Virus record (IMG/VR): IMGVR_UViG_3300042923_001771
Coordinates: 111,446 to 175,445 of that record
Origin: a virus
Length of the DNA: 64,000 bases
Strand: one strand, 5' to 3'
The stretch's first letter is position 1; each line of letters opens with the position of its first letter. The notes beneath the pieces are model-generated. The model was not told where the DNA came from and did no database searches. It saw only the letters and a list, made by a program, of their open reading frames with translations. Shown piece after piece: positions 16,342 to 50,182 of the stretch. A program made the position numbers and the translations under genes.

Positions 16342-16370
16342 AAAGAGAGCCTTAATTGGCTCTCTTTTTT
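16340..16370. terminator. Bidirectional intrinsic terminator
   Basis: AAAAAGAGAGCC pairs with GGCTCTCTTTTTT around TTAATT. It serves the convergent genes on both sides. Confidence 0.9.
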
Positions 16371-17236
16371 AGTCTTGTTGTTTTTATTTTTGCTGTAGAC
16401 TGTTCTTGATTTAAATTTGGATTAACTGTTTTATTTATTTGCGTATAGAATTCTTTACATTGTTCATATGCAATACTTAAGCTTTGCCATGAACCAGTGC
16501 TAATATATTTTTTAAAGTAATATTCAATATCCTCAAGAATTTCACGATCATACATGTCATACAAATAACGGAAGTCTAATTCATCAAATTTAACTCCAGT
16601 TATAGAATCTAGCTGAATTGGACCATAGTGAATGCACTGATTGGAATCTTTTAGTGTTTGTTTCCAAGGAAGTTCAGGATTATTCTTATTTACATATCCA
16701 TCATCCAAATCTGGTCCTAGAGCGTCTGTATCACACTCTATCTTGAATTCAGTGTTCCAAGCTGGAAGTTGCGCCCATGGTCTATTTTCCCATCTATTAC
16801 TTCTATACATACTTCTGTCAGGTCTGCCTGAGAGATAAATACCGTCAGATCCAGAAGGAGTAATGGTTTCAAGAATGTCAAGTTGGTCATCATTCATAAC
16901 TTGTTCGTAATCGTCTGGATGTTCAACCTTAATTTGGTCAACTATATCATTTATTTGTTTTTTTAATTCTTTTGTAGTATCAACACCAGAGTATTCACTA
17001 TTCATATCATCAAAAAGGCGTTTTATCGGATATGTTTTCATTTGATCAGGTGTGTGCACTGAAGGTTTAAATACATCTCTGTATGGTTCTGCTTCTCCAG
17101 TTCCATATGAAACCCTATCAACATAAGTTCCTGGAACTATTTGACCGTCGTCAACTATCATTGTAAATAATTGACTATTTGTTACGTGATAAAGGTTTAT
17201 TTTTTCCCATGCTTTTTTCTTAAGCAATCGTTTCAT
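16352..17236 (-). CDS. ART-like protein with KRLxKK tags at both ends, 294 aa
   Basis: The ATG at 17236 follows AGAGGTTGGTG and gives MKRLLKKKAWEKINLYHVT. The order LYHVT..., DDGQIVPGT, GIYLSGRPD, FKIECDTDALGPD and IHYGPIQLDSITGVKFDE resembles small ADP-ribosyltransferase-fold proteins (LYHxT start, final I..V strand), though catalytic residues cannot be assigned with confidence. The C-terminus ends TAKIKTTRLKKRAN. N- and C-terminal basic tags recur in other proteins here. Sits just downstream of the ParB-like gene and reads with it. Confidence 0.55.
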   Translation of the reverse strand: MKRLLKKKAWEKINLYHVTNSQLFTMIVDDGQIVPGTYVDRVSYGTGEAEPYRDVFKPSVHTPDQMKTYPIKRLFDDMNSEYSGVDTTKELKKQINDIVDQIKVEHPDDYEQVMNDDQLDILETITPSGSDGIYLSGRPDRSMYRSNRWENRPWAQLPAWNTEFKIECDTDALGPDLDDGYVNKNNPELPWKQTLKDSNQCIHYGPIQLDSITGVKFDELDFRYLYDMYDREILEDIEYYFKKYISTGSWQSLSIAYEQCKEFYTQINKTVNPNLNQEQSTAKIKTTRLKKRAN

Positions 17237-17255
17237 AATAACACCAACCTCTTTT

Positions 17256-17759
17256 TTAATTTTGCCATCCTCTTTTAGAAGCATCGTAATTTCCTTCTCC
17301 CAAGCCAAATCGACTGACTTGTCTTTGAGAATTACCCATGTATTGAATTTCGACAGGTACAGAAGTTAAACCTAATTGTATTGCTGCTTCTCTACGATGA
17401 TTTCCTTCACTAATTTTAGCGGTTCCATCTTTTTCAACTACAACGTGAAGTGGGTTTTGAATGCCGTTTGCTTTAATATCTTCCAAGAATCTATTCCACT
17501 TATCTTCTCTATAATCGCCAAAGTAATTATACGTCTGTCCGTCTTTAGGGTTAGTCCATTTTTCCCATTGTCTTTGTTCACCATTGCGTCCGGGTAAATC
17601 AAGAATATCTGCTAAATCAATTTCTCCTTGTTGAATTGCTGTAGTTGTCGTTGGACCCGCTTCGTAACTACTATTTGGACCTTCATCTATATGAAGTTTT
17701 GGTAAACCTACCCATCCAGCCTTTTTAATAAAGTTAGCAACTTTTTTTAATCTGCTCAT
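17256..17759 (-). CDS. ParB/sulfiredoxin-fold domain protein with RLKK N-terminal tag
   Basis: The N-terminus is MSRLKKVANFIKKAG. The second half carries the ParB-type core: FLEDIKANGIQNPLHVVVEK followed by ISEGNHRREAAIQLG and SVPVEIQYMG. This matches ParB N-terminal/Srx-like nuclease-fold domains, which bind or hydrolyse nucleotides or DNA. An AAGGGGGAA site precedes the ATG. It is followed after 19 bp by the ART-like gene. With no HTH segment it is not a full ParB. Confidence 0.75.
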   Translation of the reverse strand: MSRLKKVANFIKKAGWVGLPKLHIDEGPNSSYEAGPTTTTAIQQGEIDLADILDLPGRNGEQRQWEKWTNPKDGQTYNYFGDYREDKWNRFLEDIKANGIQNPLHVVVEKDGTAKISEGNHRREAAIQLGLTSVPVEIQYMGNSQRQVSRFGLGEGNYDASKRGWQN

Positions 17760-17827
17760 TTTTCTTCCCCCTTATTTCTATCCTTTTAATAAATAATGAA
17801 AACAGTTGCTAATAATTACATTATGCA

Positions 17828-17853
17828 ATAAAAAAAGAGTGATTTCTCACTCC
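17828..17853 (-). terminator. Intrinsic terminator for the minus-strand gene at 17856
   Basis: GAGTGA (17837-17842) pairs with TCACTC (17846-17851) with a run of A on the left, which is a U-tract on the minus strand. Confidence 0.8.
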
Positions 17854-17855
17854 TC

Positions 17856-18260
17856 TTACTTTGGTAAAAAGTTTTTAAATACCTCAAAAATGGTTTCCAC
17901 TTGATTTGATTCATTAAGTTCAAATCTATAGTGATGCCCATATTTATGTTTTGATTTTTTGTATTTTGGTATTCCAGCTGCTAAGAGTTGACTTCTCATC
18001 TTATGACCATCGAGTGACCAGTTACCGATAGAAAGATGTAATGCGCTTTTATCGATTTCTTCATCTTTCCCTCTGAGATAAAGTTTAATTGAATTAACAG
18101 GACAATTGTTATCAAATTCATATCTCACTAGAATTGTGTTGTCATTTATTTTCATAACATCTTTATCGATTTCTTGTCCAGTTAGAATATGAATTACAAA
18201 TTGTGAATCAATATAGTCTATTACGTGTTCATGTTTATTTGCAATTTCGTTTATATCCAA
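17856..18260 (-). CDS. Hypothetical protein, 134 aa
   Basis: A TTG at 18260 (minus) follows GAGAGGTG at a normal distance; the in-frame GTG at 18269 is inside that site. His-rich C-terminal half (KSKHKYGHHYRFELNE). Not recognised. It has its own minus-strand promoter, divergent from the AAA-type gene at 18363. Confidence 0.65.
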   Translation of the reverse strand: MDINEIANKHEHVIDYIDSQFVIHILTGQEIDKDVMKINDNTILVRYEFDNNCPVNSIKLYLRGKDEEIDKSALHLSIGNWSLDGHKMRSQLLAAGIPKYKKSKHKYGHHYRFELNESNQVETIFEVFKNFLPK

Positions 18261-18278
18261 GCTTTTCACCTCTCTTAT

Positions 18279-18307
18279 ATTATAATTAAAAGATAAAGTT
18301 TTATAAA
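18279..18307 (-). promoter_or_regulatory. Minus-strand sigmaA-type promoter
   Basis: On the minus strand TTTATA (18302-18307), 17 bp, TATAAT (18279-18284). It is back-to-back with the plus-strand promoter at 18311. Confidence 0.65.
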
Positions 18308-18310
18308 CAG

Positions 18311-18339
18311 TTTACAAAAACACAAGATTGTGATATAAT
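18311..18339 (+). promoter_or_regulatory. SigmaA-type promoter with extended -10
   Basis: TTTACA, 17 bp spacer ending TGA, TATAAT at 18334-18339, followed by AAGGAGG and the start at 18363. Confidence 0.9.
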
Positions 18340-18362
18340 ATTCTTATAAGGAGGTATTGAAC

Positions 18363-18938
18363 ATGCGACTTAGAACTCCAGAATTTATTGATATAGATAA
18401 AAAATTATTTAACAAATATCCTGTAAAATTTCCATTAAAGGATCGTGTTAGTATTATTCATGGTCTTAATGGTACTGGTAAAACAAAAACTTTAGAAGTA
18501 CTTGTAGAGTACTTTAAGGAGCAGGGTGAACATGTAATTTATTTTCCATCTGATAGAGTTTTTAGTTTTGATATAGATGAAGTTGAAGCTCTTGAAGTTA
18601 TGTGGGCTATGACTGATGAACAAAACATATTGAAGAAATACGGATTTCATATTTACCCTTGGGATATTAATGATATGAAAGGGCAATATATTGACTCTGG
18701 AATGTTGCAACTTATTAATTTATTTGGAACATTGGCTTTTCTCGATAAACCTTCAGTGATAATAATTGATACGCTTGAAAGAAGTTTGCACGCAGTTATA
18801 AGAAGATCAATTCTTAAAGATTTGATGGCTGTTCCTAAAATTCACAAACTAATAGTAACTTCTTATTCTCCTGAAGTTTACAGAGATTTTGAAGATTTCA
18901 CAATTAATATTAGAGAATGCGTTCAATTAGGAAGTTAA
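18363..18938 (+). CDS. AAA/ABC-type P-loop ATPase, small, 191 aa
   Basis: Walker A IIHGLNGTGKTKTL (~residues 33-46) and a Walker-B-like strand SVIIIDTLERSLH near 140, with the following strand KLIVTSYSPEVY. The layout resembles compact RecF/OLD-type AAA-21 ATPases, but a signature (LSxG) motif is not evident. The ATG at 18363 follows AAGGAGG. Function unknown. Confidence 0.7.
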   Translation: MRLRTPEFIDIDKKLFNKYPVKFPLKDRVSIIHGLNGTGKTKTLEVLVEYFKEQGEHVIYFPSDRVFSFDIDEVEALEVMWAMTDEQNILKKYGFHIYPWDINDMKGQYIDSGMLQLINLFGTLAFLDKPSVIIIDTLERSLHAVIRRSILKDLMAVPKIHKLIVTSYSPEVYRDFEDFTINIRECVQLGS

Positions 18939-18987
18939 ATTAGCACTATTTACTATATATAATACTCTCAATAAGGAGGGTGTTATA

Positions 18988-19341
18988 TTGGACGGATCGC
19001 ATTATACTCTAAGATTATTTACTCATCAAAATCTTAGCAACCCACAAAATGGAGATGCTTATATAAATTACCATGGTGAGTTAGAGATTTACCACAACTA
19101 CCGTTGGAATAAAATGGTTTCACAACAAAACTTTTATAGCATGTTAAGTGCATCACCCGTTAAGCCACCACCAATGAGTCATGAAATTTGGAGTAGAAAT
19201 TTCAGTAAAAATCTAGATCAAATAGTTGAAGCTCTGATATTATTAATGATTAGAAATGGCACGTTAGAAAATGTTCAAGAATTTAAAGATTTATTGGATT
19301 CAAAAAAAGTAGCAGAAGAACTAACTCAATATGAAAAATAA
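18988..19341 (+). CDS. Hypothetical protein, 117 aa; paralog of the 39137 gene
   Basis: The TTG at 18988 follows AAGGAGGG. The N-terminal PQNGDAYINY...HNYRW and the C-terminal helix IVEALILLMIRNG...VQEFKDLL align with PQQGDMYHDS...HNNSW and ILDTMLALLIRAN...VDEFKEIM in the protein at 39137. This shows a duplicated phage family. Function unknown. Confidence 0.7.
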   Translation: MDGSHYTLRLFTHQNLSNPQNGDAYINYHGELEIYHNYRWNKMVSQQNFYSMLSASPVKPPPMSHEIWSRNFSKNLDQIVEALILLMIRNGTLENVQEFKDLLDSKKVAEELTQYEK

Positions 19342-19344
19342 TTA

Positions 19345-19376
19345 AAAGAGAGTGATTAAATCGCTCTCTTTTTTTA
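19345..19376 (+). terminator. Rho-independent terminator
   Basis: AGAGAGTGA pairs with TCGCTCTCT around TTAAA, followed by T7. Confidence 0.88.
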
Positions 19377-19415
19377 TTGTAATAACGTTTAATTGAACTA
19401 ACGGGAGGATTGAAA

Positions 19416-20393
19416 ATGAAACGTCTTGCAAAATTAAAAACAGAAGTAACAAGTGATGAATTTTCATTAAGAGTTTTAGCATTTGATGACGAATCTGAAA
19501 TGCCAGAAGAGCCCGTAATGTGGCTTGATGCGACGCTTGAATATGAAAACGAACATCCATCTTATTATGAATCAGAAGAAGAAATTGAGTACTACAATGA
19601 ACAAGAACATGACAAAGGAAAACTCAAATCTATTTATGTAAGTGTAATTGATTTTGACAATAAATTGTATTTTGCGATGCCTGAAGCTAGACAAAGAGCT
19701 TGTGGTTCTACTCTTATAAAAAAATTTATAAGATACTACACTCAACATTATGGTAAAAATACAGACAATTGGGTTCCTGTACATGCATCATTTGCAAATT
19801 ACGATCTCCAAGAACAATTTAAAAATGCTGTAGATGCAGGGATTTTTCCTCCGCAATCAAAAGATATGATTATGGAAACAACAGAAGAGAATTATAGAAA
19901 ACAAAGAACTTACAATTTAGATAATCGTAGATTGTTAAATGAAATGAAAGAAAACCCACAGAAATTTTTTGGAAATTTTGAAATTGTTGGAGGCTTCATG
20001 ATCAACCCTAAGTTTTCACAAATCGAAGAATTAATTACTAGTGTTAGAGATAAATATGGTTTTGAGTTTAAGAATTTTGAGGGCATGATTGAAGATGGCG
20101 ATCTCACGGTTATGTTACCAACTGCAGGTCATGATTTACCATACGATGCAACAAATTTTTATTTTGATCCAGATTCAAAAGTTGTTGTCTTTAGTAATGC
20201 TGAATCACCAGATAATATTAAGAGAATAATTCAAGGTAAAGAATCAGTTATGGCGAGTTTGTTTGACTCAGTAACTGAAATTTGTTTTGGTTGGTTGGGT
20301 GGAGATCCTATTACGCCACAAGAGTTTTTCTCGTCACAAGAAAAAACTGCAAGCAACATTAGGAGATTATTAAGAAACATAAAGAGAGGGTAA
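19416..20393 (+). CDS. Hypothetical virion/host-interaction protein, 325 aa; paralog A, tagged at both ends
   Basis: The ATG at 19416 follows GGGAGG and gives MKRLAKLKTEV. The C-terminus is TASNIRRLLRNIKRG. The body aligns along its length with the 21588 protein: VIDFDNKLYFAMPEARQ, TLIKKFIRYY, GIFPPQSKDM and NLDNRRLLNEMKENP each have counterparts there. The family is not recognised. It lies upstream of codY with a terminator whose loop contains its TAA. Confidence 0.75.
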   Translation: MKRLAKLKTEVTSDEFSLRVLAFDDESEMPEEPVMWLDATLEYENEHPSYYESEEEIEYYNEQEHDKGKLKSIYVSVIDFDNKLYFAMPEARQRACGSTLIKKFIRYYTQHYGKNTDNWVPVHASFANYDLQEQFKNAVDAGIFPPQSKDMIMETTEENYRKQRTYNLDNRRLLNEMKENPQKFFGNFEIVGGFMINPKFSQIEELITSVRDKYGFEFKNFEGMIEDGDLTVMLPTAGHDLPYDATNFYFDPDSKVVVFSNAESPDNIKRIIQGKESVMASLFDSVTEICFGWLGGDPITPQEFFSSQEKTASNIRRLLRNIKRG

Positions 20394-20407
20394 CTCTCTT
20401 TTTTTTG
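20384..20407 (+). terminator. Rho-independent terminator with stop codon in the loop
   Basis: AGAGAG and CTCTCT close on GGTAA; the TAA at 20391-20393 is the stop of the upstream gene. T8 follows. Confidence 0.85.
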
Positions 20408-20426
20408 TCATAATCATGATATTAAT

Positions 20427-20476
20427 TTACAAAATATGACAATTAGTTACACAGTATTACAAGATATGACACAATT
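20427..20476 (+). repeat. Direct repeats upstream of codY (possible operator)
   Basis: TTACAAAATATGACAATT (20427-20444) and TTACAAGATATGACACAATT (20457-20476) start 30 bp apart, about three helical turns. A palindrome ATCATGAT lies just before at 20413-20420. Two well-spaced copies in a 300 bp non-coding stretch suggest a binding site. Confidence 0.55.
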
Positions 20477-20531
20477 TCTCACACTATGTTAAAAAAATTT
20501 TATACTTTTTTAATAATATAAAATCAAGAAA

Positions 20532-20623
20532 AACAATAGACTTAAAAACAAGTATTGTTGCATTAAGAAAGGAAGCGTAGTTCGTGTTTAATACGCAATA
20601 GGGTGAATATTTAAAAAATATAT
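20532..20623 (+). other. Structured leader upstream of codY
   Basis: Within the 302 bp gene-free stretch 20394-20695, three hairpins can be drawn in a row: AACAATA with TATTGTT (20532-20559), GCGTA with TACGC (20575-20596), and AATATT with AAATAT (20606-20623). They may form a transcribed leader that controls codY. No known RNA class was recognised. Confidence 0.35.
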
Positions 20624-20695
20624 ACTAACAGGCCAGATACGTTGCAAAGTACATTATAATACAATAATATTAAAAACAACTTGGGGGTTCTCATA

Positions 20696-21385
20696 ATGAA
20701 TGTAATTGAAAAGGCTAAAACTTTTTCTGCTTTACTACAACAAAGCGGCGCAGATGTTGTTGAAACAAATAATATGATTAACGCTTTACACGAAATTACA
20801 AATGCAAATGTAACATTTTTAAATACAAATGGAGAAATTAAAAATCAAGATGTGAAACATCTTGATTTAGATTTTCCATCAAATAATCAAATTAATAGTA
20901 TTAATGATGTTGAGCAAGTAACGCAATTAGAAAATGGATTTGCAGTTATTGCTCCAATTTGCAATAATAGTAAACGTCATGGTTCAGTTGTTGTTGTTAC
21001 TAGAGACTATCCAACACACGAAGATATTGCTTTTTCTAATATTGTTGCATCATTGATTGGTAAATCAATCGTTATAACTTCATCAAATGAAGAAGAAGTA
21101 GACAATAGAAATAAGATGGCTGCAAGAAATGCACTTAAATCTTTAAGTTTTACTGAGATTTGTGCAATACAAAGTATCTTTGATGAGCTTCAAGGAAATG
21201 AAGGTTTACTAGTAGCTTCAAAAATTGCAGATAGAGTTGGATTCACAAGATCAGTTATTGTAAATGCTGTACGCAAACTAGAAGGTGCAAGCGTTGTTGA
21301 GTCACGTTCTTTAGGTATGAAAGGTACTCATATTAAAATTCTTAATAATCACCTCTTGCCAGAACTTGCAGCACTAAACAAATAA
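20696..21385 (+). CDS. codY: CodY-family transcriptional regulator
   Basis: The C-terminal half is clearly CodY: EGLLVASKIADRVGFTRS, VIVNAVRKLEGASVVESRS and LGMKGTHIKILNN form the conserved winged HTH of Bacillota CodY. The N-terminal ~140 residues correspond to the GAF ligand domain but are strongly diverged and shortened (229 versus about 259 residues in hosts), so sensing of branched-chain amino acids or GTP is uncertain. The ATG at 20696 follows GGGGG; the in-frame TTG at 20681 is unlikely. In hosts CodY represses nutrient-limitation genes. The phage copy sits between two paralogous genes and could redirect host metabolism. A strong bidirectional-looking terminator follows. Confidence 0.93.
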   Translation: MNVIEKAKTFSALLQQSGADVVETNNMINALHEITNANVTFLNTNGEIKNQDVKHLDLDFPSNNQINSINDVEQVTQLENGFAVIAPICNNSKRHGSVVVVTRDYPTHEDIAFSNIVASLIGKSIVITSSNEEEVDNRNKMAARNALKSLSFTEICAIQSIFDELQGNEGLLVASKIADRVGFTRSVIVNAVRKLEGASVVESRSLGMKGTHIKILNNHLLPELAALNK

Positions 21386-21396
21386 TATTTTTATTC

Positions 21397-21431
21397 AAAA
21401 TGAGACCAAATTAATTTGGTCTCATTTTTTT
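21397..21431. terminator. Intrinsic terminator after codY
   Basis: AAATGAGACCAAATT pairs with AATTTGGTCTCATTT, flanked by A- and T-runs. Confidence 0.9.
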
Positions 21432-21461
21432 ATACATAACTCTATAGAATGAAACACAGTA

Positions 21462-21492
21462 TTAAAACTCATTTTTAATAGATTATTATTTA
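21462..21492 (+). promoter_or_regulatory. Degenerate copy of the intergenic cassette
   Basis: TTAAAACTCA (21462-21471) followed by ATTATTATTTA (21482-21492): both conserved pieces of the terminator/bipartite cassette, but the stem and the ATATTAT half are eroded. The next gene starts at 21588. Confidence 0.35.
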
Positions 21493-21587
21493 GATAAAAC
21501 ATTTTAGCTTAAAAGTTTAAATCTTGATAATAAAAAAGATTACATTTAATATTCTAAAATAGAAACAAAACACAGGAGGAAAGTGTA

Positions 21588-22523
21588 ATGAGTATTTTTG
21601 AAAGAATGGCTGAATTAAAGTCTGACATACTAAATGCAACAGATAGAGATTTAAAAGTAGTTGTTTATGATACAGAAGCTAAAGATCCAAGTAAGCCAGT
21701 AGCGTGGTTAAATGCTAATTTTCAATATGAAGGAAATACTCCAAATCTACTTTATGTCGATGTAATTGATTTTGATGATGACGCTCTTTTCAGTATGCCT
21801 AAGAATAGAAAGGACATGTGCGGAGCTGTACTTTTGAAGAAATTCATGAGATACTATAGAGATAATTTCGGAAAAGACAACAAGAAAGACAACCCGTGGT
21901 TACCTGTTGGTGCTAATTTTATCAATTATGAAATACAAGAAAAATTTGACAAATTATTAGATTCAGGTATGTTTCCACCACAATCAAATGATCATGTTCA
22001 AAGAACTACAAAAGATCAATTTAATAAAGAACTACACTATAATAAAGATAATAGAGAAATGATGCACAACATAAAGACTAATCCAGGAGATTACTTTACA
22101 ACATTGCACATTGAAAATAATTATTCAATAAACGATTCTCTTTCTGAGATTAATAGTGCTTTAGAAAAATTTACGAAGGAATTCCCTGAAGCAGCTGAAA
22201 ATAGCTATAGGTTTGATATTTTATCTGGGCACATTAAAGATGGTAATGTTTACGTCATGCTACCAGTAAATGATGAATTACCTTCAGATCAAGAAACCAG
22301 TTTTCAATATTATAAGCAAGAGGGAAATTTGTTCTTTGAAAATGCTTTCACATTAGAAGATGCTAAAAATTTTGTTGGTGATAATAAAGAAAACATCAAG
22401 AAATCATTTGATGCAGTTCAAACAATTCAATGCATAAACACAGATAAACTACCAGTTGGATCTTTATTTAATGACAATACAGAGGCGAGTATGATTAAGA
22501 GATTAATTAAACGTTCAAAATAA
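21588..22523 (+). CDS. Hypothetical virion/host-interaction protein, 311 aa; paralog B
   Basis: Aligns with the 19416 protein over most of its length (VIDFDDDALFSMPKNRK, VLLKKFMRYY, GMFPPQSNDH and NKDNREMMHNIKTNP). The start MSIFERMAELKSD lacks the KRLxKK start, but the C-terminus EASMIKRLIKRSK keeps the tag. A CACAGGAGG site precedes the ATG. The pair flanks codY. Function unknown. Confidence 0.75.
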   Translation: MSIFERMAELKSDILNATDRDLKVVVYDTEAKDPSKPVAWLNANFQYEGNTPNLLYVDVIDFDDDALFSMPKNRKDMCGAVLLKKFMRYYRDNFGKDNKKDNPWLPVGANFINYEIQEKFDKLLDSGMFPPQSNDHVQRTTKDQFNKELHYNKDNREMMHNIKTNPGDYFTTLHIENNYSINDSLSEINSALEKFTKEFPEAAENSYRFDILSGHIKDGNVYVMLPVNDELPSDQETSFQYYKQEGNLFFENAFTLEDAKNFVGDNKENIKKSFDAVQTIQCINTDKLPVGSLFNDNTEASMIKRLIKRSK

Positions 22524-22526
22524 AAA

Positions 22527-22560
22527 AGAGACGATAACAATAGAGTTATCGTCTTTAGTG
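22527..22560 (+). terminator. Intrinsic terminator
   Basis: GACGATAAC pairs with GTTATCGTC around AATAGA, followed by a T-rich but interrupted tail. Confidence 0.7.
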
Positions 22561-22641
22561 CTTTTTCTATTATATCGATTAAGCTACATATTATTTAACA
22601 TTAGATGCTCTTATTGTGTTTGAAAGGGAGGGAATTATAAG

Positions 22642-26121: not shown

Positions 26122-26316
26122 ATGAAAAGACTTATTAAAAAGGCTAAACAAAATTTTGCCGTTGGAGATAAGGTAATTTATAAAACTCATCCTTACGACA
26201 ATACTACAATATATACAGTTGAAGAGGTTTTGACGGGTGGAACTTATTTTATAGCAAATGAAGAAACAGCTTATACGGATATTAACGGTAGAAACTTGGA
26301 AAAGTTAAATTCATAA
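26122..26316 (+). CDS. Small SH3/KOW-like protein with KRLIKKA tag, 64 aa
   Basis: Begins MKRLIKKAKQNFAVGDKVIY, exactly sharing MKRLIKKA with the 44197 protein. The remainder (GDKVIYKTHPY, YTVEEVLTGGTYFIA) looks like a small SH3-like barrel. It lies 15 bp after the fibre gene. Possibly a packaged virion protein; function unknown. Confidence 0.65.
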   Translation: MKRLIKKAKQNFAVGDKVIYKTHPYDNTTIYTVEEVLTGGTYFIANEETAYTDINGRNLEKLNS

Positions 26317-26354: not shown

Positions 26355-27387
26355 ATTTTTTTGTAATTTGTTCTAGTTCTCTAATTGTTCTTTCCAATGC
26401 TTCTTTGTAAGGTGATTGTTGACTTGGCAAGGAAAATCTATAGTAGAATAAAATAGCAACTATGATAATGAACAACGTAATAAAGACGGAGGTAATAAAT
26501 GCGTTGTAAAGTGCCGCTGTAACAATTCGAGTTATTTCATCAAATTTAGTAGTAACGGCAATCTGACTTACATCATTATTAATGTTAGTAACATTCATTT
26601 TAGTAACGTATTGATTACCAACCTTTGTACTACTTTCATCAAAGTAGTTTTTTGAATTAGTTCCTGGTGGACTATTTTCAAAGCGGATATCAATAATGTT
26701 TTCATTGTCTTCATTAATTGTTTTTAAACTACCAATTAAATCAATAACGCTTGGATCTTTGATATCACTAACTGATAAACTGATTTCTAGTACAATGAAT
26801 CCAACTTTATCAATATATCCAACTCCTTTATAAGCTAACTTATTAAAGTCATAGGGATATTTTGGAGATTGAGAGAATTTATCAACATAAATTTCTTTGT
26901 TCTTTAAAACATCATTGAAAATTTTATTCCAGTCTGTGTCAGTTCTATCTTTATAAATACTAGCTGAGTTTAAACCAATATCTGCAGAATCTGTTGAGTA
27001 CTTAACCATTCCATTATCATCAAGTACATAAATATTAGTTATGTTATACTCCTTTTTGAGGTTTTGAAGAGCGGTATTATCAACAGTTCCAATTGATTTA
27101 ATTTCAGTTTCCATAGATAGCAATATGCTCTTCATTGTGTCAGCAACAAATGGCTCTACAGCAAGAACAAACTTGTTAACGCCTTCATACCTGTCTTTAG
27201 CATTCATAGTAATAAGTTTAGAGAGTTTATATGAGTCGGCTTCGGTTGCTGATTTTAATTGGAAGAAGTTTATCCAAATAGTACTTAAACTAAACAAGCA
27301 AATTAATGCAAAAGATAACAAGAAAAACCTAAGTGTTTTTGCTTTAGGACTCCTAGGATTCTTAACTTTTTTATTTTTAAGTTTCAT
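26353..27387 (-). CDS. Membrane protein with extracytoplasmic Cache-like sensor domain, 344 aa
   Basis: Two transmembrane helices, at ~25-45 and ~290-312 (AFITSVFITLFIIIVAILF), bracket a ~240-residue outer domain. Its sequence (NITNIYVLDDNGMVKYSTDS, then GFIVLEISLSVSDIKDPSV) resembles the dCache/sCache sensors of chemoreceptors and histidine kinases. The C-terminus is only about 35 residues with no kinase, HAMP or signalling domain, so it has no obvious output. Reads toward the terminator at 26314. Its upstream neighbour on the same strand is an XhlA-like protein. Possibly a decoy or interfering partner for host receptors. Confidence 0.75.
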   Translation of the reverse strand: MKLKNKKVKNPRSPKAKTLRFFLLSFALICLFSLSTIWINFFQLKSATEADSYKLSKLITMNAKDRYEGVNKFVLAVEPFVADTMKSILLSMETEIKSIGTVDNTALQNLKKEYNITNIYVLDDNGMVKYSTDSADIGLNSASIYKDRTDTDWNKIFNDVLKNKEIYVDKFSQSPKYPYDFNKLAYKGVGYIDKVGFIVLEISLSVSDIKDPSVIDLIGSLKTINEDNENIIDIRFENSPPGTNSKNYFDESSTKVGNQYVTKMNVTNINNDVSQIAVTTKFDEITRIVTAALYNAFITSVFITLFIIIVAILFYYRFSLPSQQSPYKEALERTIRELEQITKK

Positions 27388-27399
27388 AAAAACACCCCC

Positions 27400-27729
27400 T
27401 TATTTAATGATATGCTCTAAGACGTAAGTTAAAAGCGAAATTGCAAGAGTTGTTGCTGTACCTAATAACCACATTTGAATTTTGTTGAATCTTTCATCAA
27501 TCTTTTCATCCAAAGAGGCATCGGTACTGTTAATTGTTTCTAATAACTGTCTCTCGTTGTCAATGATTTTGTCGATTTTGTCTTCAAGTTTTTGAACCTT
27601 AGCAATTAATTGCTCTTCATTTTTGTTAATTCTTTCATCTTGCTGTTCTTGCCATCTTTCAATTGAACTAACTTTAGCCTCTAAAGCAGCCACTTTTGCC
27701 ATTAATTCATATCTTTCATTTTCTCCCAT
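27400..27729 (-). CDS. XhlA-like membrane protein, 109 aa
   Basis: An N-terminal coiled coil (ELMAKVAALEAKVSSIERWQ onward to about residue 80) is followed by a single C-terminal membrane helix (MWLLGTATTLAISLLTYVLE). This is the layout of XhlA-type haemolysin/holin-associated proteins of Bacillota phages. No endolysin gene is next to it. It lies 12 bp upstream of the Cache membrane protein on the same strand, preceded by GGGGAGGGGG. A role at lysis or in the membrane with the neighbour is possible. Confidence 0.75.
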   Translation of the reverse strand: MGENERYELMAKVAALEAKVSSIERWQEQQDERINKNEEQLIAKVQKLEDKIDKIIDNERQLLETINSTDASLDEKIDERFNKIQMWLLGTATTLAISLLTYVLEHIIK

Positions 27730-42562: not shown

Positions 42563-42591
42563 TTTACATAATTCCTTTTGGATGATATAAT
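42563..42591 (+). promoter_or_regulatory. SigmaA-type promoter with extended -10
   Basis: TTTACA, 17 bp spacer, TATAAT at 42586-42591. Confidence 0.88.
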
Positions 42592-43686: not shown

Positions 43687-43694
43687 TGTTTCTT

Positions 43695-43722: not shown

Positions 43723-43777
43723 ATTTTAAAATTTTCCATTAGTTTTATTAGATTAATAATAAAAGGAGTTGAATAAA

Positions 43778-44182
43778 ATGGCTTTAGAGATTAGTTCTGA
43801 TTGGCAAGAAATAGCAGATGCAATTATTCAAAAATATCCTATAGCAATGGGACATATAGAAATTGATAAGGTTTTGTTTTTGAACGAAACTGAAAAGACA
43901 CCTAAGATGAAATATGCTGATACAAGAAATGTTGCATATCCATTCAATTTCATCACAGACTATAAATATATCATTATATTTTATGCAAACAATATTCAAG
44001 CAATGACAGAAGCACAAAAGCACATGCTTTGCTTTCATGAATTACTGCATATTGATGAAACATTTGAAAAACTTAGAAAACACAATATCGAAGACTTTAG
44101 AGAGTTAGTCAGTACTTATGGAATCAACTGGGATATTGATCCCAATCTAATAGATATATTGTCAGATGAAGCAGAAGAATAA
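43778..44182 (+). CDS. Putative phage metallopeptidase (HExxH-type), 134 aa
   Basis: The active-site helix CFHELLHIDETF matches HExxH, with a downstream KHNIEDF likely providing a third ligand and the ending STYGINWD typical of the phage metallopeptidase family. The ATG at 43778 follows AAAGGAG. Upstream of the ART-like gene on the opposite strand, separated by a bidirectional terminator. Confidence 0.8.
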   Translation: MALEISSDWQEIADAIIQKYPIAMGHIEIDKVLFLNETEKTPKMKYADTRNVAYPFNFITDYKYIIIFYANNIQAMTEAQKHMLCFHELLHIDETFEKLRKHNIEDFRELVSTYGINWDIDPNLIDILSDEAEE

Positions 44183-44219
44183 AAAAGAAAGTAGTCTTAA
44201 TTGACTACTTTCTTTTTTA
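44180..44219. terminator. Bidirectional intrinsic terminator
   Basis: A 16 bp stem (AAAAAAGAAAGTAGTC pairs with its complement) around TTAATT serves both convergent genes. Confidence 0.92.
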
Positions 44220-45174
44220 CTAATCTTTTTGCTGTTTGTTGTTGACCAGAATTATTTTGTTGCTCAGTATTGTATTGCATCTCTAAGTCGGAAAAAGGTA
44301 TTTCATCAGCACTGTCAAATAAACATAAAATACTGCTATTAAAGACAGTTTTAATATTCTCAATAGTGTTTGGATATTGAGAAAAATAATCCATAAGTTT
44401 ATTTACCGTAGTATCGTAAATGCTTAATTCATTACTTTCAGCATTATAATTAATGTCTATTCCTGAAGGACTTATAACATGCATGAACTTTACCACTATG
44501 CTAACATCTCCATTAGTGATTGAACCCCTATTTGAGTAAATTGGAGCACCGTACTCGCCACAAATATTAGCATAATTTGCAATGGACTGATTAATAATTA
44601 ACCCAGTACTATCAAATATGTAACCCGCATATTTTAATTTATTGTAAAAATCTTCATGAGTAGATTTCTTTGGTTTTTCTTTGATGTAAGCGTCCTCTTC
44701 TTTTTCAAATAAGCTTTTCTTTTCTGCGTATACTTGTTCAGCTTTGTCAATAGTTGTTTCTGTAACTTCTTTCATAGTGTAAGGGTTATACAAATAAACT
44801 TTTTTAATATAATCTGTCGTTACAATACCTAAAAGTTTAACTTGATCGTTATGATTAGAGCTATCTTGCCAAGTTTTAGCAAAAGGAGCATCGTTGTCGT
44901 CTGGTTGTAATGCATCTTCTGATACGTCAACCTCTAAAACGACTTTTGGACCTTCTCCTTTAGCCCAATTTGCATAAGTTTTAGCTCTATCAATTGTTGT
45001 AGCTAGAAAAGTAAATCCATCAAATAATATTGGGTCCGCGCCTGCAGGTCCAGCACCATTATTTTTTTGCTCGTTCGGATAGATGCCTCCCATTTGTATG
45101 ATTCCAAGTAAACCCTCATAACTTGTACCATGATACAAGGTTTTTCCAAATGCTTTCTTAATCAATCTTTTCAA
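44197..45174 (-). CDS. ADP-ribosyltransferase-like protein with KRLIKKA and C-terminal tags, 325 aa
   Basis: A TTG at 45174 (minus) follows GGAGG (an in-frame ATG 15 bp upstream overlaps that site) and gives MKRLIKKAFGKTLYHGTSYE. The order LYHGTS, GIIQMGGI, FTFLATTIDRAKTYA, VVLEVDV and GIVTTDYIKKVYLY matches ART-fold enzymes that begin with LYHGT and end in an I..V strand. The C-terminus, after a Gln-rich linker, ends TAKRLVKKKVVN. The T4 Alt protein, an injected ART, is the precedent for a packaged enzyme of this kind. Target unknown. Confidence 0.7.
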   Translation of the reverse strand: MKRLIKKAFGKTLYHGTSYEGLLGIIQMGGIYPNEQKNNGAGPAGADPILFDGFTFLATTIDRAKTYANWAKGEGPKVVLEVDVSEDALQPDDNDAPFAKTWQDSSNHNDQVKLLGIVTTDYIKKVYLYNPYTMKEVTETTIDKAEQVYAEKKSLFEKEEDAYIKEKPKKSTHEDFYNKLKYAGYIFDSTGLIINQSIANYANICGEYGAPIYSNRGSITNGDVSIVVKFMHVISPSGIDINYNAESNELSIYDTTVNKLMDYFSQYPNTIENIKTVFNSSILCLFDSADEIPFSDLEMQYNTEQQNNSGQQQTAKRLVKKKVVN

Positions 45175-45258
45175 AGTTTTTACCTCCATGATTTGACTTT
45201 ATTAGAGAATAAATAAACATGGACAAAATAAAATACTTGTTAAATTTTTAAATTTCAG

Positions 45259-45287
45259 TTTACAAAATAAAGAAAGTATGATATAAT
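45259..45287 (+). promoter_or_regulatory. SigmaA-type promoter with extended -10
   Basis: TTTACA, 17 bp spacer ending TGA, TATAAT at 45282-45287. Confidence 0.88.
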
Positions 45288-45338
45288 TAATATGTACCTA
45301 AAAAAAATCCGTTCCTATTATATAAGGAGGTTTTAACA

Positions 45339-45782
45339 ATGTGGCTTGGACTGCTCGGAGTGTCATTGGTGTTAATGACTATTGGTTTATTAATGATATT
45401 TCTTACTGTATTTAAAGCATATTTAAAGTTTGTATTTAGAGGATTAAAAAAATGGATAGAAGCAATATCATTCTATTTCTTTTATTTATTCGATAAAAAA
45501 TTTGTTGTCGATAAAGGCAAATCTGTTCCTTACAAGGATGAAATTCAAATAAGAATTGAAGCAGAAGAAGTTAGAAAACAAACATTATATGCAGATAGAA
45601 GTGCCAAAGAATTTCTTGGCGCAGTTAATTTCGTTGAAAGTTTAAAGGTAAAATACCCTATGGCTGATGAGTACTTATTTCACAATATGACAGAAAATGT
45701 ACTAAATGCTAAAAACATAAATATCTTTAAAGAACTTGAAGAAACAGTAAAACACAGTCATAACACAAACAAGGCAAATTAA
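45339..45782 (+). CDS. Membrane protein, 147 aa
   Basis: Long hydrophobic N-terminus (WLGLLGVSLVLMTIGLLMIF, on to ~35) and then a charged cytoplasmic-looking part. AAGGAGG precedes the ATG. Not recognised; monocistronic with own promoter and terminator. Confidence 0.65.
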   Translation: MWLGLLGVSLVLMTIGLLMIFLTVFKAYLKFVFRGLKKWIEAISFYFFYLFDKKFVVDKGKSVPYKDEIQIRIEAEEVRKQTLYADRSAKEFLGAVNFVESLKVKYPMADEYLFHNMTENVLNAKNINIFKELEETVKHSHNTNKAN

Positions 45783-45807
45783 AATTGCATACAGGAATAC
45801 ATAAGAT

Positions 45808-45837
45808 AAGCTTATCAAAATAGGTAAGCTTTTTATT
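45808..45837 (+). terminator. Intrinsic terminator
   Basis: AGCTTATC pairs with GGTAAGCT (one G-T) around AAAATA, followed by T5. Confidence 0.7.
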
Positions 45838-45854
45838 ATGTAGATAAAAAACAG

Positions 45855-45883
45855 TTTACATTGTTAAGAAAATATGATATAAT
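45855..45883 (+). promoter_or_regulatory. SigmaA-type promoter with extended -10
   Basis: TTTACA, 17 bp spacer ending TGA, TATAAT at 45878-45883. Drives ligA and possibly the CoaB/CoaC genes. Confidence 0.88.
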
Positions 45884-45916
45884 AATAATATAAGGTAATC
45901 AAGGAGGAAGAATAAA

Positions 45917-47950
45917 ATGTCAAAGGCAATTAAATTAAAGATGGACAAATTGGTTGACACAATTCAACTACACAATCACAAATATTTCGTTGAAAACAAT
46001 CCAGAACTTCCTGATTTAGTATTTGATCAATTAGTAAAGCAACTACAATATTTAGAAGAAAAATATCCTGAGTACGCAAATGGACAAAGTCCAACTAAGT
46101 TTGTTGGTGAACGTTCTGACATTAATACCTTTGAGCAAGTTAAACACAAACGCCCTATGCTTTCACTTTCCAAAGCGATGAATATGGATGAACTTAAAGA
46201 ATTCTTATACAAACTTATTGCATCTGGTGTTCGCGACTTCACACTTGAACCTAAAATTGATGGATTGGCATTGTCCTTGTATTATGAAACAGGTACACTT
46301 GTAAGGGCAGTTACAAGGGGAGATGGAACAACAGGTGATGATGTTACTAAAACAGCGTTATGTATCAACGACATCCCTAAGAAATTATCATTTAGCTTCA
46401 CTGGAGAAGTTCGTGGAGAGGCATATTTAAAGAAATCAGTCTTAGAGACTTTCAATAAGACTCGCGAATTACTTGGTCTTAAGAAATATAAAAATGTACG
46501 TAATACAGCATCTGGCTTAATGAAACGTAAAGAAGTAACTGAAGAAAACTACATCTTGAGCTTCTTTGCTTACAGTATTTTTGATGACAAGAGAGAGTTC
46601 TTCACATATGAAGAATCAATTATGTCATTGAAAGATATGGGTTTCCCAACAACGTTATTTACTAGAGATAACGTCAAGCATTTATTAATTTCTCATGCTA
46701 TTACAATTAATGATTTTAGCAACATGCAACTCGAAAACATGTATGAAATTGATGCAGCGCTTGAAAAAATTGTCAATGACTGGACTGAAATTAGAGATGA
46801 ATTAGATTATGATATTGATGGTCTAGTTTTGAAAGTAAACGATACTAATGAACAGCAAACTCTTGGTATGGACGACCATTCTCCAAATTGGGCTACAGCT
46901 TATAAGTTCCCAGCAACTGAAAAAGTAACAACTCTTCTTGGAGTAGAATGGACAATGGGCAATAAGGGTAACATTACTCCTTGTGCTATCATTGAGCCAG
47001 TAGAGATTGGTGGCACCGATGTTGTTGGTCCTACATTGCATAATGTCGATGAATTGAAAAAGCTAGGAGTTATGATTGGCGATCAAATCGTTGTATCTCG
47101 TCGCGGAGACGTTATTCCTAAAGTAGAAAGAGCATTACCAGAGTTGAGAACTGGAGATGAAACTCCAATTGAAATTCCAACTCATTGCCCAGCATGCGGA
47201 GCACCAACAGTTGTTAAAAGTGCTTTCATGGAATGTTCTGCTGGATTTAATTGTTCTTACATGGAATTTGCTAGAGTACAGAATTTTGTTCACTCGGTAG
47301 AAATCGACGAACTTGGTCAAGTTCTAATTGAAAAAATGCTTGAAGCAGAAATTATTGAAGATTTTGCAGACCTATACGATGTAAAATCTGAGCAAATCGA
47401 AACACTTGAAAGAATGGGCAAACGTTCTGCAGAGAAAGCAGTTAAGAACATTCAAGCTACTAGAAGTGTAGATTTGCACAAGGTAATTGCTGGCCTTACA
47501 ATTGATGGCGTAGGTTCAAGTACAGCGAAAGACTTAGCAAATAAATTCCAAGGTTGGGAAGCATTCCTTTATGCCACAGAAGAACAACTTCGTTCCATTG
47601 ATGGTATTGGGCCAATAGTAGCTAAAAATATCGTTGAATGGTGTCAAAACCCAGTCAATCAAAATCTGATTGGCAAACTCATTGATAGAGAAATTGGCAA
47701 ATATGAAGTATTTGTACCATCTTCTGGTAAGTTGAATGGTAAAGTATTTGCAACTAGTGGTACTCTAACTATTGGTCGCAAGGAACTTGAAAAAACTATC
47801 CTTGATAATGGTGGAGAGTTCACAAGTATTAAAAAAGGTGTTACTCACTTTATTGCTGGTGAAGGTTGCGTTGAAGCTAAAAAGGACAAGGCAGCAAAGC
47901 TTGGAGCAAAAGTAATTTCTGGACAAGACTTCTTTGAAATGGTAAAGTAA
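45917..47950 (+). CDS. ligA: NAD-dependent DNA ligase LigA
   Basis: Full-length (677 aa; E. coli 671). N-terminal NAD-binding Ia domain, then the adenylation lysine in EPKIDG (Lys113), RGDGTTGDDVT, the C4 zinc finger (CPACG ... ECSAGFNC), helix-hairpin-helix repeats (AGLTIDGVGSSTAKDLANKF, IDGIGPIVAKNI) and a C-terminal BRCT domain (KVFATSGTL). It seals nicks using NAD. An AAGGAGGAAG site precedes the ATG. Unlike the ATP-dependent ligases common in phages, it is the bacterial type. Confidence 0.96.
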   Translation: MSKAIKLKMDKLVDTIQLHNHKYFVENNPELPDLVFDQLVKQLQYLEEKYPEYANGQSPTKFVGERSDINTFEQVKHKRPMLSLSKAMNMDELKEFLYKLIASGVRDFTLEPKIDGLALSLYYETGTLVRAVTRGDGTTGDDVTKTALCINDIPKKLSFSFTGEVRGEAYLKKSVLETFNKTRELLGLKKYKNVRNTASGLMKRKEVTEENYILSFFAYSIFDDKREFFTYEESIMSLKDMGFPTTLFTRDNVKHLLISHAITINDFSNMQLENMYEIDAALEKIVNDWTEIRDELDYDIDGLVLKVNDTNEQQTLGMDDHSPNWATAYKFPATEKVTTLLGVEWTMGNKGNITPCAIIEPVEIGGTDVVGPTLHNVDELKKLGVMIGDQIVVSRRGDVIPKVERALPELRTGDETPIEIPTHCPACGAPTVVKSAFMECSAGFNCSYMEFARVQNFVHSVEIDELGQVLIEKMLEAEIIEDFADLYDVKSEQIETLERMGKRSAEKAVKNIQATRSVDLHKVIAGLTIDGVGSSTAKDLANKFQGWEAFLYATEEQLRSIDGIGPIVAKNIVEWCQNPVNQNLIGKLIDREIGKYEVFVPSSGKLNGKVFATSGTLTIGRKELEKTILDNGGEFTSIKKGVTHFIAGEGCVEAKKDKAAKLGAKVISGQDFFEMVK

Positions 47951-47959
47951 ATATTTATC

Positions 47960-47980
47960 AGGCTGCTTCGGCAGCCTTTC
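47960..47980 (+). terminator. GC-rich UUCG tetraloop hairpin after ligA
   Basis: AGGCTGC pairs with GCAGCCT around TTCG. It has a very weak T-tail, so it could be a weak terminator or an mRNA-stabilising hairpin between ligA and the CoaB-like gene. Confidence 0.5.
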
Positions 47981-48010
47981 ATACATACTAAAATTAGGAG
48001 ATGATTTAGA

Positions 48011-48784
48011 ATGAATATTCTTATTACTGCTGGTGGAACAAAAGAAGCTATTGACAAAGTACGTCATATCACGAATATGTCTAGCGGGTCTCTTGGACGT
48101 GAGATTGCTGCATACGCAACCACTAAAGAATCAATTAAAGAAATTCATTTCGTTGGTCCAAAAGAAGCATTCCCAAAAGTTAAGTTTGGTGATATGCAAG
48201 CTGTTGATAAATATGTTGGATATGTTGTTGATTCTGTCGAAGACCTTTCAAGTACGCTTGAAAAAATTCTTACTACAAAAAAGATCGATGTAGTCATTCA
48301 CTCTATGGCAGTAAGCGACTACACTGTTGATTATGTATGCAATTTAGAAGACATGGTGAACGGCATATTTGAGTATATGAGTGTTGATACTGAGTGTTGT
48401 CCTGCAGATGTAATTGATTACATAAAAAAGGGAGAATTTAGAATTGATACAAATTCTAAAATGTCTTCAAAAAGTGAAGATCCTATTATTAAATTGACAC
48501 CTACGCAAAAAGTAATTGGTAATATCAAGAAATGGGCTCCAGATACAGTGCTTGTAGGGTTTAAACTTTTGGAAAATGTATCTGATGATGAATTAATTAA
48601 GGTAGCTCGTCAACAAATGCATAAAAATAAATGTGACTTTGTTTGGGCAAATGATATTAAACGTATTAGAGAGACCGGTCACCAAGGGTTATTGATTGAA
48701 AATGACGGCGTGACTTGTTTCCATGGTAAAGAGTCAATTGCTAAAGGTATCATCGATGCAGTTATACATTATGTTAAGGAGTAA
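48011..48784 (+). CDS. CoaB-like phosphopantothenate-cysteine ligase domain protein, 257 aa
   Basis: Starts with the CoaB signature NILITAGGTKEAIDKVRHI then TNMSSGSLGREIA, followed by MAVSDYTVD, KMSSKSED, KLTPTQKVIGNIKKW (K..PK.i..I pattern), VGFKLLE and CDFVWANDI. These are the conserved blocks of the C-terminal half of Dfp/CoaBC. It would make 4'-phospho-N-pantothenoylcysteine from phosphopantothenate and cysteine for coenzyme A synthesis. It is separate and precedes the CoaC-like gene by 6 bp, the reverse of the usual CoaC-CoaB fusion order. Confidence 0.88.
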   Translation: MNILITAGGTKEAIDKVRHITNMSSGSLGREIAAYATTKESIKEIHFVGPKEAFPKVKFGDMQAVDKYVGYVVDSVEDLSSTLEKILTTKKIDVVIHSMAVSDYTVDYVCNLEDMVNGIFEYMSVDTECCPADVIDYIKKGEFRIDTNSKMSSKSEDPIIKLTPTQKVIGNIKKWAPDTVLVGFKLLENVSDDELIKVARQQMHKNKCDFVWANDIKRIRETGHQGLLIENDGVTCFHGKESIAKGIIDAVIHYVKE

Positions 48785-48790
48785 CTTAAT

Positions 48791-49378
48791 ATGAGAGCAC
48801 CTAATGGAGAAACAATTAACCAATTCATGAATAAAACATTTGTTGTTGGTATTACTGGTGGAATTGCATCGTATAAAGCTATTGGCTTATGTAGTTATCT
48901 TAAGCAACAAGGCGCTAGCGTATTTCCCGTTATGACACGTGGAGCAGCAAAAATGATCCAACCAGCTTCAGTTAGAGGTGTTGTAGGTAGAGACCCTCTA
49001 ATTGAAGTTTGGGAAGAGCCAATTCCAAATGCAATTGCTCATATCTATTTAGCTGAACAAGCTCATGCGATTATTGTGGCTCCAGCAACAGCTCATACAA
49101 TTGCTAAACACCATGCTGGGTTGGCAGATGATATGCTAACTAATATTCTTTTAGCGACAGAGAATAAAGAGAAAATACTTTTCTGCCCAGCAATGAACGT
49201 TCATATGTGGCAACACCCCGCAACACAAAGAAATGTAAATGAAATGAAGAGTTGGGGTATTCAATTTCTTGAGCCAACTTCCGGTAATCTTGCTTGTGGA
49301 GTAAATGATGTTGGTAGGCTCCCAGAAACTCCAGAAATTGTTGCAAAGATTAAGGAAATGACAGCATACAAAGCTTAA
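48791..49378 (+). CDS. CoaC-like flavoprotein decarboxylase, 195 aa
   Basis: HFCD-family flavoprotein. VGITGGIASYKAIGL (FMN-binding), AIAHIYLAEQAHAIIVAPAT with the catalytic His, NVHM after CPAMN (PAMNxxM), and LACGVNDVGRLPE with the flap Cys are all present. These match CoaC (phosphopantothenoylcysteine decarboxylase) rather than UbiX. An AAGGAG site precedes the ATG. It follows the CoaB-like gene; together they cover two steps of coenzyme A synthesis. Confidence 0.9.
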   Translation: MRAPNGETINQFMNKTFVVGITGGIASYKAIGLCSYLKQQGASVFPVMTRGAAKMIQPASVRGVVGRDPLIEVWEEPIPNAIAHIYLAEQAHAIIVAPATAHTIAKHHAGLADDMLTNILLATENKEKILFCPAMNVHMWQHPATQRNVNEMKSWGIQFLEPTSGNLACGVNDVGRLPETPEIVAKIKEMTAYKA

Positions 49379-49387
49379 ATAAGTTTA

Positions 49388-49425
49388 AAAATATCAGCTA
49401 TTTTAAAATAGCTGATATTTTTTTG
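49388..49425. terminator. Intrinsic terminator, possibly bidirectional
   Basis: AAATATCAGCTATTTT pairs with AAAATAGCTGATATTT with T8. Confidence 0.92.
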
Positions 49426-49474
49426 TGTTTAAATACGTATTCTGTAATAGAGTAAATAAAAAGGAGTGAATAAA

Positions 49475-50182
49475 ATGGCACGTTTAAAGAAAGTCGCTGA
49501 ACTTCAGGAGTTAAATGAGTTAAATATGTCATCTAACGTTTTGAATGTAATTATTCAAACTAAAGACGCGAGTGACACTGTAAGTAATGTTGTTTATCGT
49601 AGATTAATGAACAACAACACTAAGCTTGTTGTAGAGATTTGGGAATTAACAGGTGAAAAGTATGCAGTATTCTCTGGTCACTATCAAGGACAATGGACTG
49701 CGAATAATATTGAAATGAGCGAAATTTTTGATAGCTTGAATGAAGCTCAATTGTATGTTCAAACCGAACTTCAAGGTGAGGCAGAAGTAAACCAACTTAT
49801 TGTTAGTTTTAAGAGACTTAATAATTACAAAAAGATTATGGCTAAAGGCGGAGAGCCTAACTATAATCAAATAGCTAAAGATTTTCAAAAAGAAGTAAAT
49901 ATTCCAGATGTTGAGATGCATCATAAGGAACATATCAATAAGTATTATGGGCAATTTCAAGATTATATGAAACAATACTATCCAGAGTGGGCTAAATATC
50001 CTGCCTATATTTGGGGAGGTTGGGGTCACTTTACAAACCTAGTTAATCCTGATAATAGTAAAGATGAGCCAAAAGAAGAAACTCCAAAAGAAGAAGCTAC
50101 AGTTCCAGCTCAAACCTCTCCTGAGGTTGCACCGTCTGCACCAGTTGGCGGAGATATGGGCGGCGGTGGCGAAGGCGAATAA
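49475..50182 (+). CDS. Hypothetical protein with RLKK N-terminus, 235 aa
   Basis: The ATG at 49475 follows AAGGAG and gives MARLKKVAELQELNELNM. A beta-rich body with NKYYGQFQDYMKQYYPEWAK and a low-complexity tail (PKEETPKEEATVPAQTSPE, GGDMGGGGEGE). It shares the RLKK N-terminal tag but lacks the C-terminal tag. Function unknown; possibly a virion protein. Confidence 0.7.
   Translation: MARLKKVAELQELNELNMSSNVLNVIIQTKDASDTVSNVVYRRLMNNNTKLVVEIWELTGEKYAVFSGHYQGQWTANNIEMSEIFDSLNEAQLYVQTELQGEAEVNQLIVSFKRLNNYKKIMAKGGEPNYNQIAKDFQKEVNIPDVEMHHKEHINKYYGQFQDYMKQYYPEWAKYPAYIWGGWGHFTNLVNPDNSKDEPKEETPKEEATVPAQTSPEVAPSAPVGGDMGGGGEGE

Follow-up and report, generated by a model that had tools for sequence, protein, structure and literature searches.

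Short terminal peptides load cargo into shells of the HK97 fold, as exemplified by encapsulins, with their cargo-loading peptides, and by phage P22, the scaffold of which has a coat-binding tail. In phage T4, the internal proteins are described as entering the prohead via an N-terminal sequence of about ten residues, the capsid-targeting sequence (CTS), which is removed by the head protease, and the ADP-ribosyltransferase (ART) Alt is described as being trimmed at both ends (PMC9026906, PMC5694885). The present work concerns a short basic peptide of the type MKRLIKKA, designated the tag, which is present at the ends of dissimilar proteins encoded by a 64,000-base stretch of viral DNA, designated the window (bases 111,446-175,445 of the 175,445-base virus record IMGVR_UViG_3300042923_001771). 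A sequence-only reading of the window had proposed that the tag is a virion-packaging signal. Each of the tags listed in that reading was found in the expected open reading frame (ORF) and its coordinates were re-read (Table 1). Our analysis suggests that the tag probably directs proteins into the virus head for injection into the next bacterium.

Bacillus phage G (Donellivirus, 497,513 bases) has relatives of 126 of the 223 predicted genes of the record, distributed over about 34-190 kb of its genome and for the most part collinear with those of the record. In the phage collection, the ART-like protein encoded by ORF 44197-45174 had relatives only in two phage G entries, in the region of gp336 (40% identical across 41% of its length). 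Together, these matches identify the record as part of the genome of a phage-G-like megaphage. The head module is absent from the record, so that the head protease of this phage was not seen. For statistics, the record was combined with six relatives, one of them in part, giving 1,788 proteins with 60 or more residues; the set includes phage G, the 110-kb contig G003, and records G017, G018, G022, and G024. Gene starts were taken from a simple caller blind to the motif.

The tag resembles the CTS of T4 internal proteins IPI, IPII, and IPIII and the propeptides of Alt in being a short terminal peptide borne by differing proteins, and in both phage groups a head protease is encoded and ARTs carry the terminal peptide. 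In contrast, the sequences are unrelated, and the phage G group has more cargo families as well as C-terminal copies. The consensus differs from the T4 CTS (MKTYQEFI..), and the KRL start pattern was unmatched in T4, in which MKTYQEF, a start of the CTS type, occurs twice. Since the sequences are unrelated and trimming and packaging are inferred, we regard the tag as probably working like a T4 CTS and do not file it as one. The trimming of Alt at both ends provides a precedent for two-ended tags. The sequences of encapsulin cargo-loading peptides and of the P22 scaffold tail, as generally described, also differ from that of the tag.

Excess of the tag at protein termini

The search proposed in the sequence-only reading, for the motif [KR]RL.[KR][KR] within the terminal 20 residues, revealed an N-terminal excess far above that of shuffles keeping the composition of every position. 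In the seven records pooled, 38 of the 1,788 proteins had the motif within their first 20 residues (about 0.34 expected) and 6 had it within their last 20 (0.35 expected), whereas only one of 14,486 interior windows contained it. The motif was present at 7 of 211 N-termini (shuffle mean 0.02), 2 of 211 C-termini (0.03), and none of 1,918 interior windows of this record; the corresponding values for phage G were 17 of 634 (0.19), 1 of 634 (0.15), and none of 5,177. A stricter N-terminal pattern matched 75 of the 1,788 proteins (shuffle mean 6.1) but was written after the tags had been seen, so that the earlier motif provides the fair test.

The tag was also recovered by a procedure that makes no use of a motif, based on counting pairs of proteins that share five residues near the start and are unrelated, as defined by the lack of a BLAST match at 1e-5. 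The number of N-terminal pairs was 12 in this record (shuffle mean 1.6, maximum 6), 68 in phage G (mean 21.6, maximum 32), and 9 in G003 (mean 1.6, maximum 6), and KRLIK was the commonest N-terminal 5-mer, or tied for that rank, in these three records. G022 (KRLVK), G018 (KKRLI/KRLIA), and G017 were also above their shuffles; G024 was within them (3 pairs, maximum 5). None of the mid-protein sets exceeded the shuffle maximum.

The claim that tags occur at both ends held unequally, with an overwhelming excess at N-termini and a C-terminal excess that is real but small. A profile trained on the N-terminal tags was passed, at the top threshold, by 8 of the 1,788 C-termini (shuffle mean 0.38, maximum 2) and by 9 of 18,345 interior windows; 15 cases of the motif inside proteins were listed. 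The motif-free test did not bring the tag out at C-termini, this record having a single pair (shuffle mean 2.1), and the C-termini above shuffles in phage G, G003, and G024 shared ENDRYLA or NKLKK, not the tag. An alanine was present within the six residues preceding the C-terminal tag in 8 of 10 hand-picked cases (P 2e-4), a count that is exploratory because these cases were taken from the fourteen C-termini scoring best with the profile and four intermediate-ranked ones (own_70977, G017_14894, G003_43629, and G018_168183) were left out.

Alignment on R-L of the 77 proteins with a strictly defined N-terminal tag gave the consensus (K/S)-R-L-(I/K/V)-(K/R)-(K/A/I)-(A/S). Position +5, on which the pattern makes no demand, was occupied by alanine or serine in 50 of the 77 proteins, compared with a background of 9.2%. 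Among 18 tags containing RLIKK, 16 different codings were found, indicating that selection acts on the peptide.

Tagged genes, the head module, and the tagged bodies

In the six records that include the major capsid gene, 26 of the 173 genes located in the 24 kb that lead up to it were tagged, versus 39 of 1,516 elsewhere (odds ratio 6.7, Fisher p 9.5e-11, a value that is optimistic since the six records are mutually related and not independent). In phage G, the gene order is portal gp14, gp17 (tagged), gp19, gp20 (tagged), gp21, decoration protein gp26, and major capsid protein gp27. The protein flanked by the two tagged products, gp19, matched head maturation protease PHROG 18299 (E 2.6e-19) and has relatives in five other records. 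A candidate head protease is reportedly named in the abstract of Gonzalez et al. 2020. Members of the gp20 family are tagged in five of six records under a looser rule and in four under the strict rule. The sixth record has the tag inside a fused protein, at the point where the gp20 body begins. In G024, a homologue of the ORF 19416-20393/21588-22523 pair, with tag-like sequence at both ends, is located between the relatives of gp17 and gp20. The gp11 family is acidic in all six records (net charge -38 to -99). Finally, K-T-A was found near the start of the protease in six of six records, and the major capsid protein has L-I-x-K-A close to its N-terminus in six of seven members of the clade; the similarity of both motifs to the tag is no more than suggestive.

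The 77 tagged proteins belong to 42 families, families being considered separate if no match was obtained at 1e-6 with 35% coverage. Phage G has 29 tagged proteins by the strict pattern. They include the ParB-like gp284 (Pfam 3e-9), a GNAT (2.5e-5), a SLOG protein (3e-6), a deoxyribosyltransferase-like protein (8.4e-16), and a protein with a WYL match below the cut-off (0.0012). Protein gp346 (255160-255879), which starts with MKRLFKKA, is ferritin-like (1.6e-13) and matches a PHROG DNA-binding family; it is a candidate packaged Dps-like protein. Further tagged proteins of phage G are gp9, gp10, gp53, gp141, gp336, and gp508. Many tagged proteins had no domain match. The sequence-only reading had described tagged bodies of the window as ART-like, ParB-like, and SH3-like. 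The ART assignment (ORFs 44197-45174 and 16352-17236) was supported by profile matches, a profile of ten related proteins matching the structure of DarT1 (8baq, E 4.6e-7) and the bodies also matching PHROG 13493; the AlphaFold model of the ORF 44197-45174 product alone (predicted local distance difference test, pLDDT, 33) was not used. The ParB-like body of ORF 17256-17759 was also supported (PHROG match, 6.3e-9). In contrast, the SH3-like assignment of ORF 26122-26316 found no support above the cut-off (PF24203, E 0.018, under its curated score).

The tag behaves as an addition to these bodies. The phage G ARTs gp532 and gp568 are untagged; two untagged phage G ART relatives begin with MEKVYHGTS and MKTLYHSTS, and tagged ARTs are extended by some eight residues or more before the point where the untagged ones begin. 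The tag of a SLOG-family protein of phage G is missing from two relatives, and a GNAT family comprises N-terminally tagged members, one C-terminally tagged member, and some untagged ones. According to a survey of viral NAD/ADP-ribose systems, phage G has at least ten ARTs, and ARTs, SLOG, and Nudix proteins are argued to be often packaged (PMC9503650). Similarly, the P1 protein DdrB, which has a ParB-like domain, is described as processed and packaged in the head, although that work does not show which part is packaged (PMC5512222).

Function of the tag and alternative explanations

The presence of the tag on dissimilar proteins, its varied codons, its clustering with head genes, its gain and loss, and the takeover enzymes among its carriers argue for an address. 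The evidence leans towards phage-G-like megaphages using a short protein-level address, of the approximate form (M)-(K/S)-R-L-(I/K/V)-K-(K)-(A/S) and placed at either end, to send proteins into the assembling head. The basic amphipathic tag would dock on an acidic core or scaffold protein, for which the gp11 family is a candidate, or on the shell. A gp19-type head protease would then cut beside the flanking alanine or serine, on the side of the body, and the body would be injected with the DNA. The untagged ARTs gp532 and gp568 would be left behind in the producing cell, like ModA and ModB of T4, in which Alt is packaged. The consequences of the packaging-signal proposal that can be assessed in silico do hold, namely the concentration of tags near head genes, the position of gp17 and gp20 beside the protease, the enzyme classes that published work predicts, or partly shows, to be cargo, and the add-on behavior. 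According to PMC8570332, phage G has been analyzed by mass spectrometry (Gonzalez et al. 2020). The case for the tag itself is strong and that for its function is moderate. If the address reading is correct, genes of megaphages that are mostly of unknown function would yield a list of proteins predicted to be injected (29 for phage G by the strict pattern), candidate takeover and anti-defense effectors would be singled out, and the large number of ARTs carried by one phage would become easier to explain. The tag would also be a short portable loading signal for one of the largest known phage heads.

Several observations weigh against an address. Most tagged genes (39 of 65 in the six records) are located outside the head module, the non-independence of these records tempers the enrichment, and the C-terminal copies are few. 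A shared late promoter was not found by comparing upstream k-mers of 41 tagged and 940 untagged genes; the words obtained, for instance TATTTTA (raw p 1.2e-5 among 342 words), were AT-rich and located at inconsistent distances, and they were rejected. The motif [KR]RL.[KR][KR] was found in none of 278 proteins of G018, no tag was present among 21 ORFs around the capsid gene of the capsid relative L060, and the exact start MKRL.KK was absent from 5 of the 12 records searched, some of which hold variants such as SRLKK. A tag common to the whole capsid lineage was also rejected, as a looser start pattern showed no clear excess, with 35 matches versus 31 for the reversed control in capsid relatives outside the clade (Tunturi_5, LR745208, Rctr197k, and Sebata tested together).

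The best-surviving alternative, which we nevertheless consider unlikely, is that of a generic basic amphipathic peptide binding DNA, the nucleoid, or the membrane, and acting as a tether in the cell, the head not being recognized and any packaging being passive. The alternation of basic residues with leucine, isoleucine, and alanine, as in an amphipathic helix, would suit such a binder, as would the location of most tagged genes and the match of the ferritin-like protein to a DNA-binding family. However, this explanation does not sit well with the enrichment of tags beside head genes, and the conserved R-L core, with alanine or serine at +5, is more specific than charge alone needs. Less probable still is a degradation signal read by a phage ClpXP and marking short-lived proteins. 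ClpX reads both N- and C-terminal signals, and the phage encodes ClpX and has genes related to those for ClpP and ClpX in phage G, but neither clustering in the head module nor conservation on gp17 and gp20 is predicted by a degron. It is very improbable that the tag is the start of a secretion signal, a codon effect at translation starts, or functionless copied DNA, for although small viral contigs of unrelated origin encode a secretion-signal-like sequence with the identical start MKRLIKKA and gene starts in AT-rich genomes favor lysine codons, a hydrophobic stretch of the Sec type, and a borderline one, follows the tag in only one of the 77 proteins, shuffles keeping the composition of the start region do not yield the tag, the codings are varied, and C-terminal copies exist.

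Distribution, other repeated stretches, and features of the window

As far as tested, the tag occurs only in phage-G-like phages, and unevenly among them. The KRL start pattern had 7 matches in this record, one of which, at 42576 (MKSLNKR), is not a tag, 7 in G003, and 9 in phage G. In G003, five called genes start with MKRLIKK, and one more such start may exist at 44467, in a short uncalled frame. The tag was rejected as a general feature of Bacillus phages or of T4, SPO1, SP-15, BpSp, and T4 having no match to the KRL start pattern; AR9 and PBS1 had two matches each, to the same two sequences, the reading frame of which was unchecked. Searches of bacteria with MKRLIKK[AS] start patterns gave at least 119 stretches, and each of the 80 entries listed had a single match, in contrast to the five genes of G003. 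Tunturi_5 alone had 14 matches to the looser start pattern, versus 8 for the reversed control. Two Tunturi_5 proteins encoded just before the capsid gene end with RLSRSRK and DRLLRK. No description of the tag was found in titles and openings of abstracts, a coverage that leaves out most subscription journals and does not establish that the tag is unpublished.

A different stretch was found in the 485-kb LR745208, a distant capsid relative with a capsid protein 37% identical to that of phage G. This genome showed no KRL excess (16 matches versus 15 in the reversed control) and had six matches to IRLAxxNP (none in the reversed control), one copy being located two genes before the capsid gene. 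Extending the pattern to IRLAxxNPxLRxxLLP yielded 54 stretches from viral contigs, and a fuller form, LRSKLIRLAHxNPxLRPxLLPLLKEA, was present, mostly at the N-terminus, in huge-phage contigs, including LR745208 (L111:18719, loci L114-L173). The frames at the loci of the longer pattern and at the six LR745208 loci held 55 occurrences, of which 39 were no more than 25 residues from the start, 3 were close to the end, and 13 were at other positions, the same gene being sometimes counted more than once and some frames possibly having a wrong start. Ten of the proteins were scanned, revealing one Zeta-toxin-like kinase domain (4.8e-12) and one sub-threshold RelA/SpoT match. Like the KRL tag, the IRLAxxNPxLRxxLLPLL stretch is located at the starts of many differing proteins and occasionally at the end; in contrast, it is longer, unrelated in sequence, and belongs to a different lineage. 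It is possible, although we hold this extension only tentatively, that address tags specific to each lineage serve megaphages as a general code for loading cargo. Any protein gaining the tag at either end would be loaded into the head, trimmed at the flanking alanine or serine, and injected, so that dozens of different effectors would be delivered by one virion, and KRLIKKA and IRLA would be two independent codes. Codes of this kind would have arisen more than once if both stretches are indeed cargo tags.

A C-terminal word, W.ENDRYLA, is common to many small phage G proteins (for example at 26743-27099, 27109-27432, and about 350-383 kb), some of which have no BLAST similarity to one another, and also occurs in G024.

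Table 1. Position of the tags in the window and the reading frames that carry them.
Tag	End	Coordinates	Strand	ORF	Remark
MKRLLKKK	N	17213..17236	-	16352-17236	ART-like; upstream start also possible
TTRLKKRAN	C	16355..16381	-	16352-17236	ART-like
MSRLKKVA	N	17736..17759	-	17256-17759	ParB-like
MKRLAKLK	N	19416..19439	+	19416-20393	weak tag; GNAT-like fold possible
IRRLLRNIKRG	C	20358..20390	+	19416-20393	
IKRLIKRSK	C	22494..22520	+	21588-22523	paralogue of 19416-20393
MKRLIKKA	N	26122..26145	+	26122-26316	64 residues
(M)KRLIKKA	N	45151..45174	-	44197-45174	ART-like; TTG start
TAKRLVKKKVVN	C	44200..44235	-	44197-45174	ART-like
MARLKKVA	N	49475..49498	+	49475-50182	

Outside the window, the record has nine more tag-like genes. 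Several tags of the window have counterparts in relatives. ORF 26122-26316 has a relative in phage G (147651-147848) starting with MLKRLIKKS, phage G gp141, related to ORF 16352-17236, ends with KIKRLKKFNK, and gp238, a relative of ORF 49475-50182, starts with MSYLRKIA. For ORF 44197-45174, the first codon of the tag is TTG (45174), and an upstream ATG start would give MEVKTLKRLIKKA. The N-terminal tag of ORF 19416-20393 is missed by the strict pattern; a homologue in another phage starts with MSFFKRLAKLQ and ends with NKRLIKKNSSK. The model of the body common to this protein and its paralogue (pLDDT 60.5) had GNATs as leading structural matches (Z up to 7.4), with metallo-beta-lactamases reaching 6.7, and no Foldseek match at E 0.001 or better. 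Comparison of the family with PDB sequences gave nothing below E 0.35, and tblastn of the ORF 19416-20393 product gave no match in the phage collection. Searches for related loci gave nothing with the ORF 44197-45174 product alone or with that of ORF 26122-26316, and the ART alignment gave no conserved stretch.

Other genes of the window include a putative phage metallopeptidase gene (PF18894, E 1.4e-21) at 43778-44182, beside the ART-like ORF 44197-45174, and a gene for a CodY-like regulator at 20696-21385 (Pfam HTH_CodY 8.4e-26, CodY GAF-like domain 3.5e-13). Two adjoining genes at 48011-49378 matched DFP (1.7e-28) and Flavoprotein (1.6e-31) and presumably encode the two halves of CoaBC, for coenzyme A synthesis. 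A gene for ClpX with a zinc finger (PF06689, 2.7e-17) is located at 62666-64000 and runs off the end of the record; its neighbor resembles the ClpP gene of phage G.

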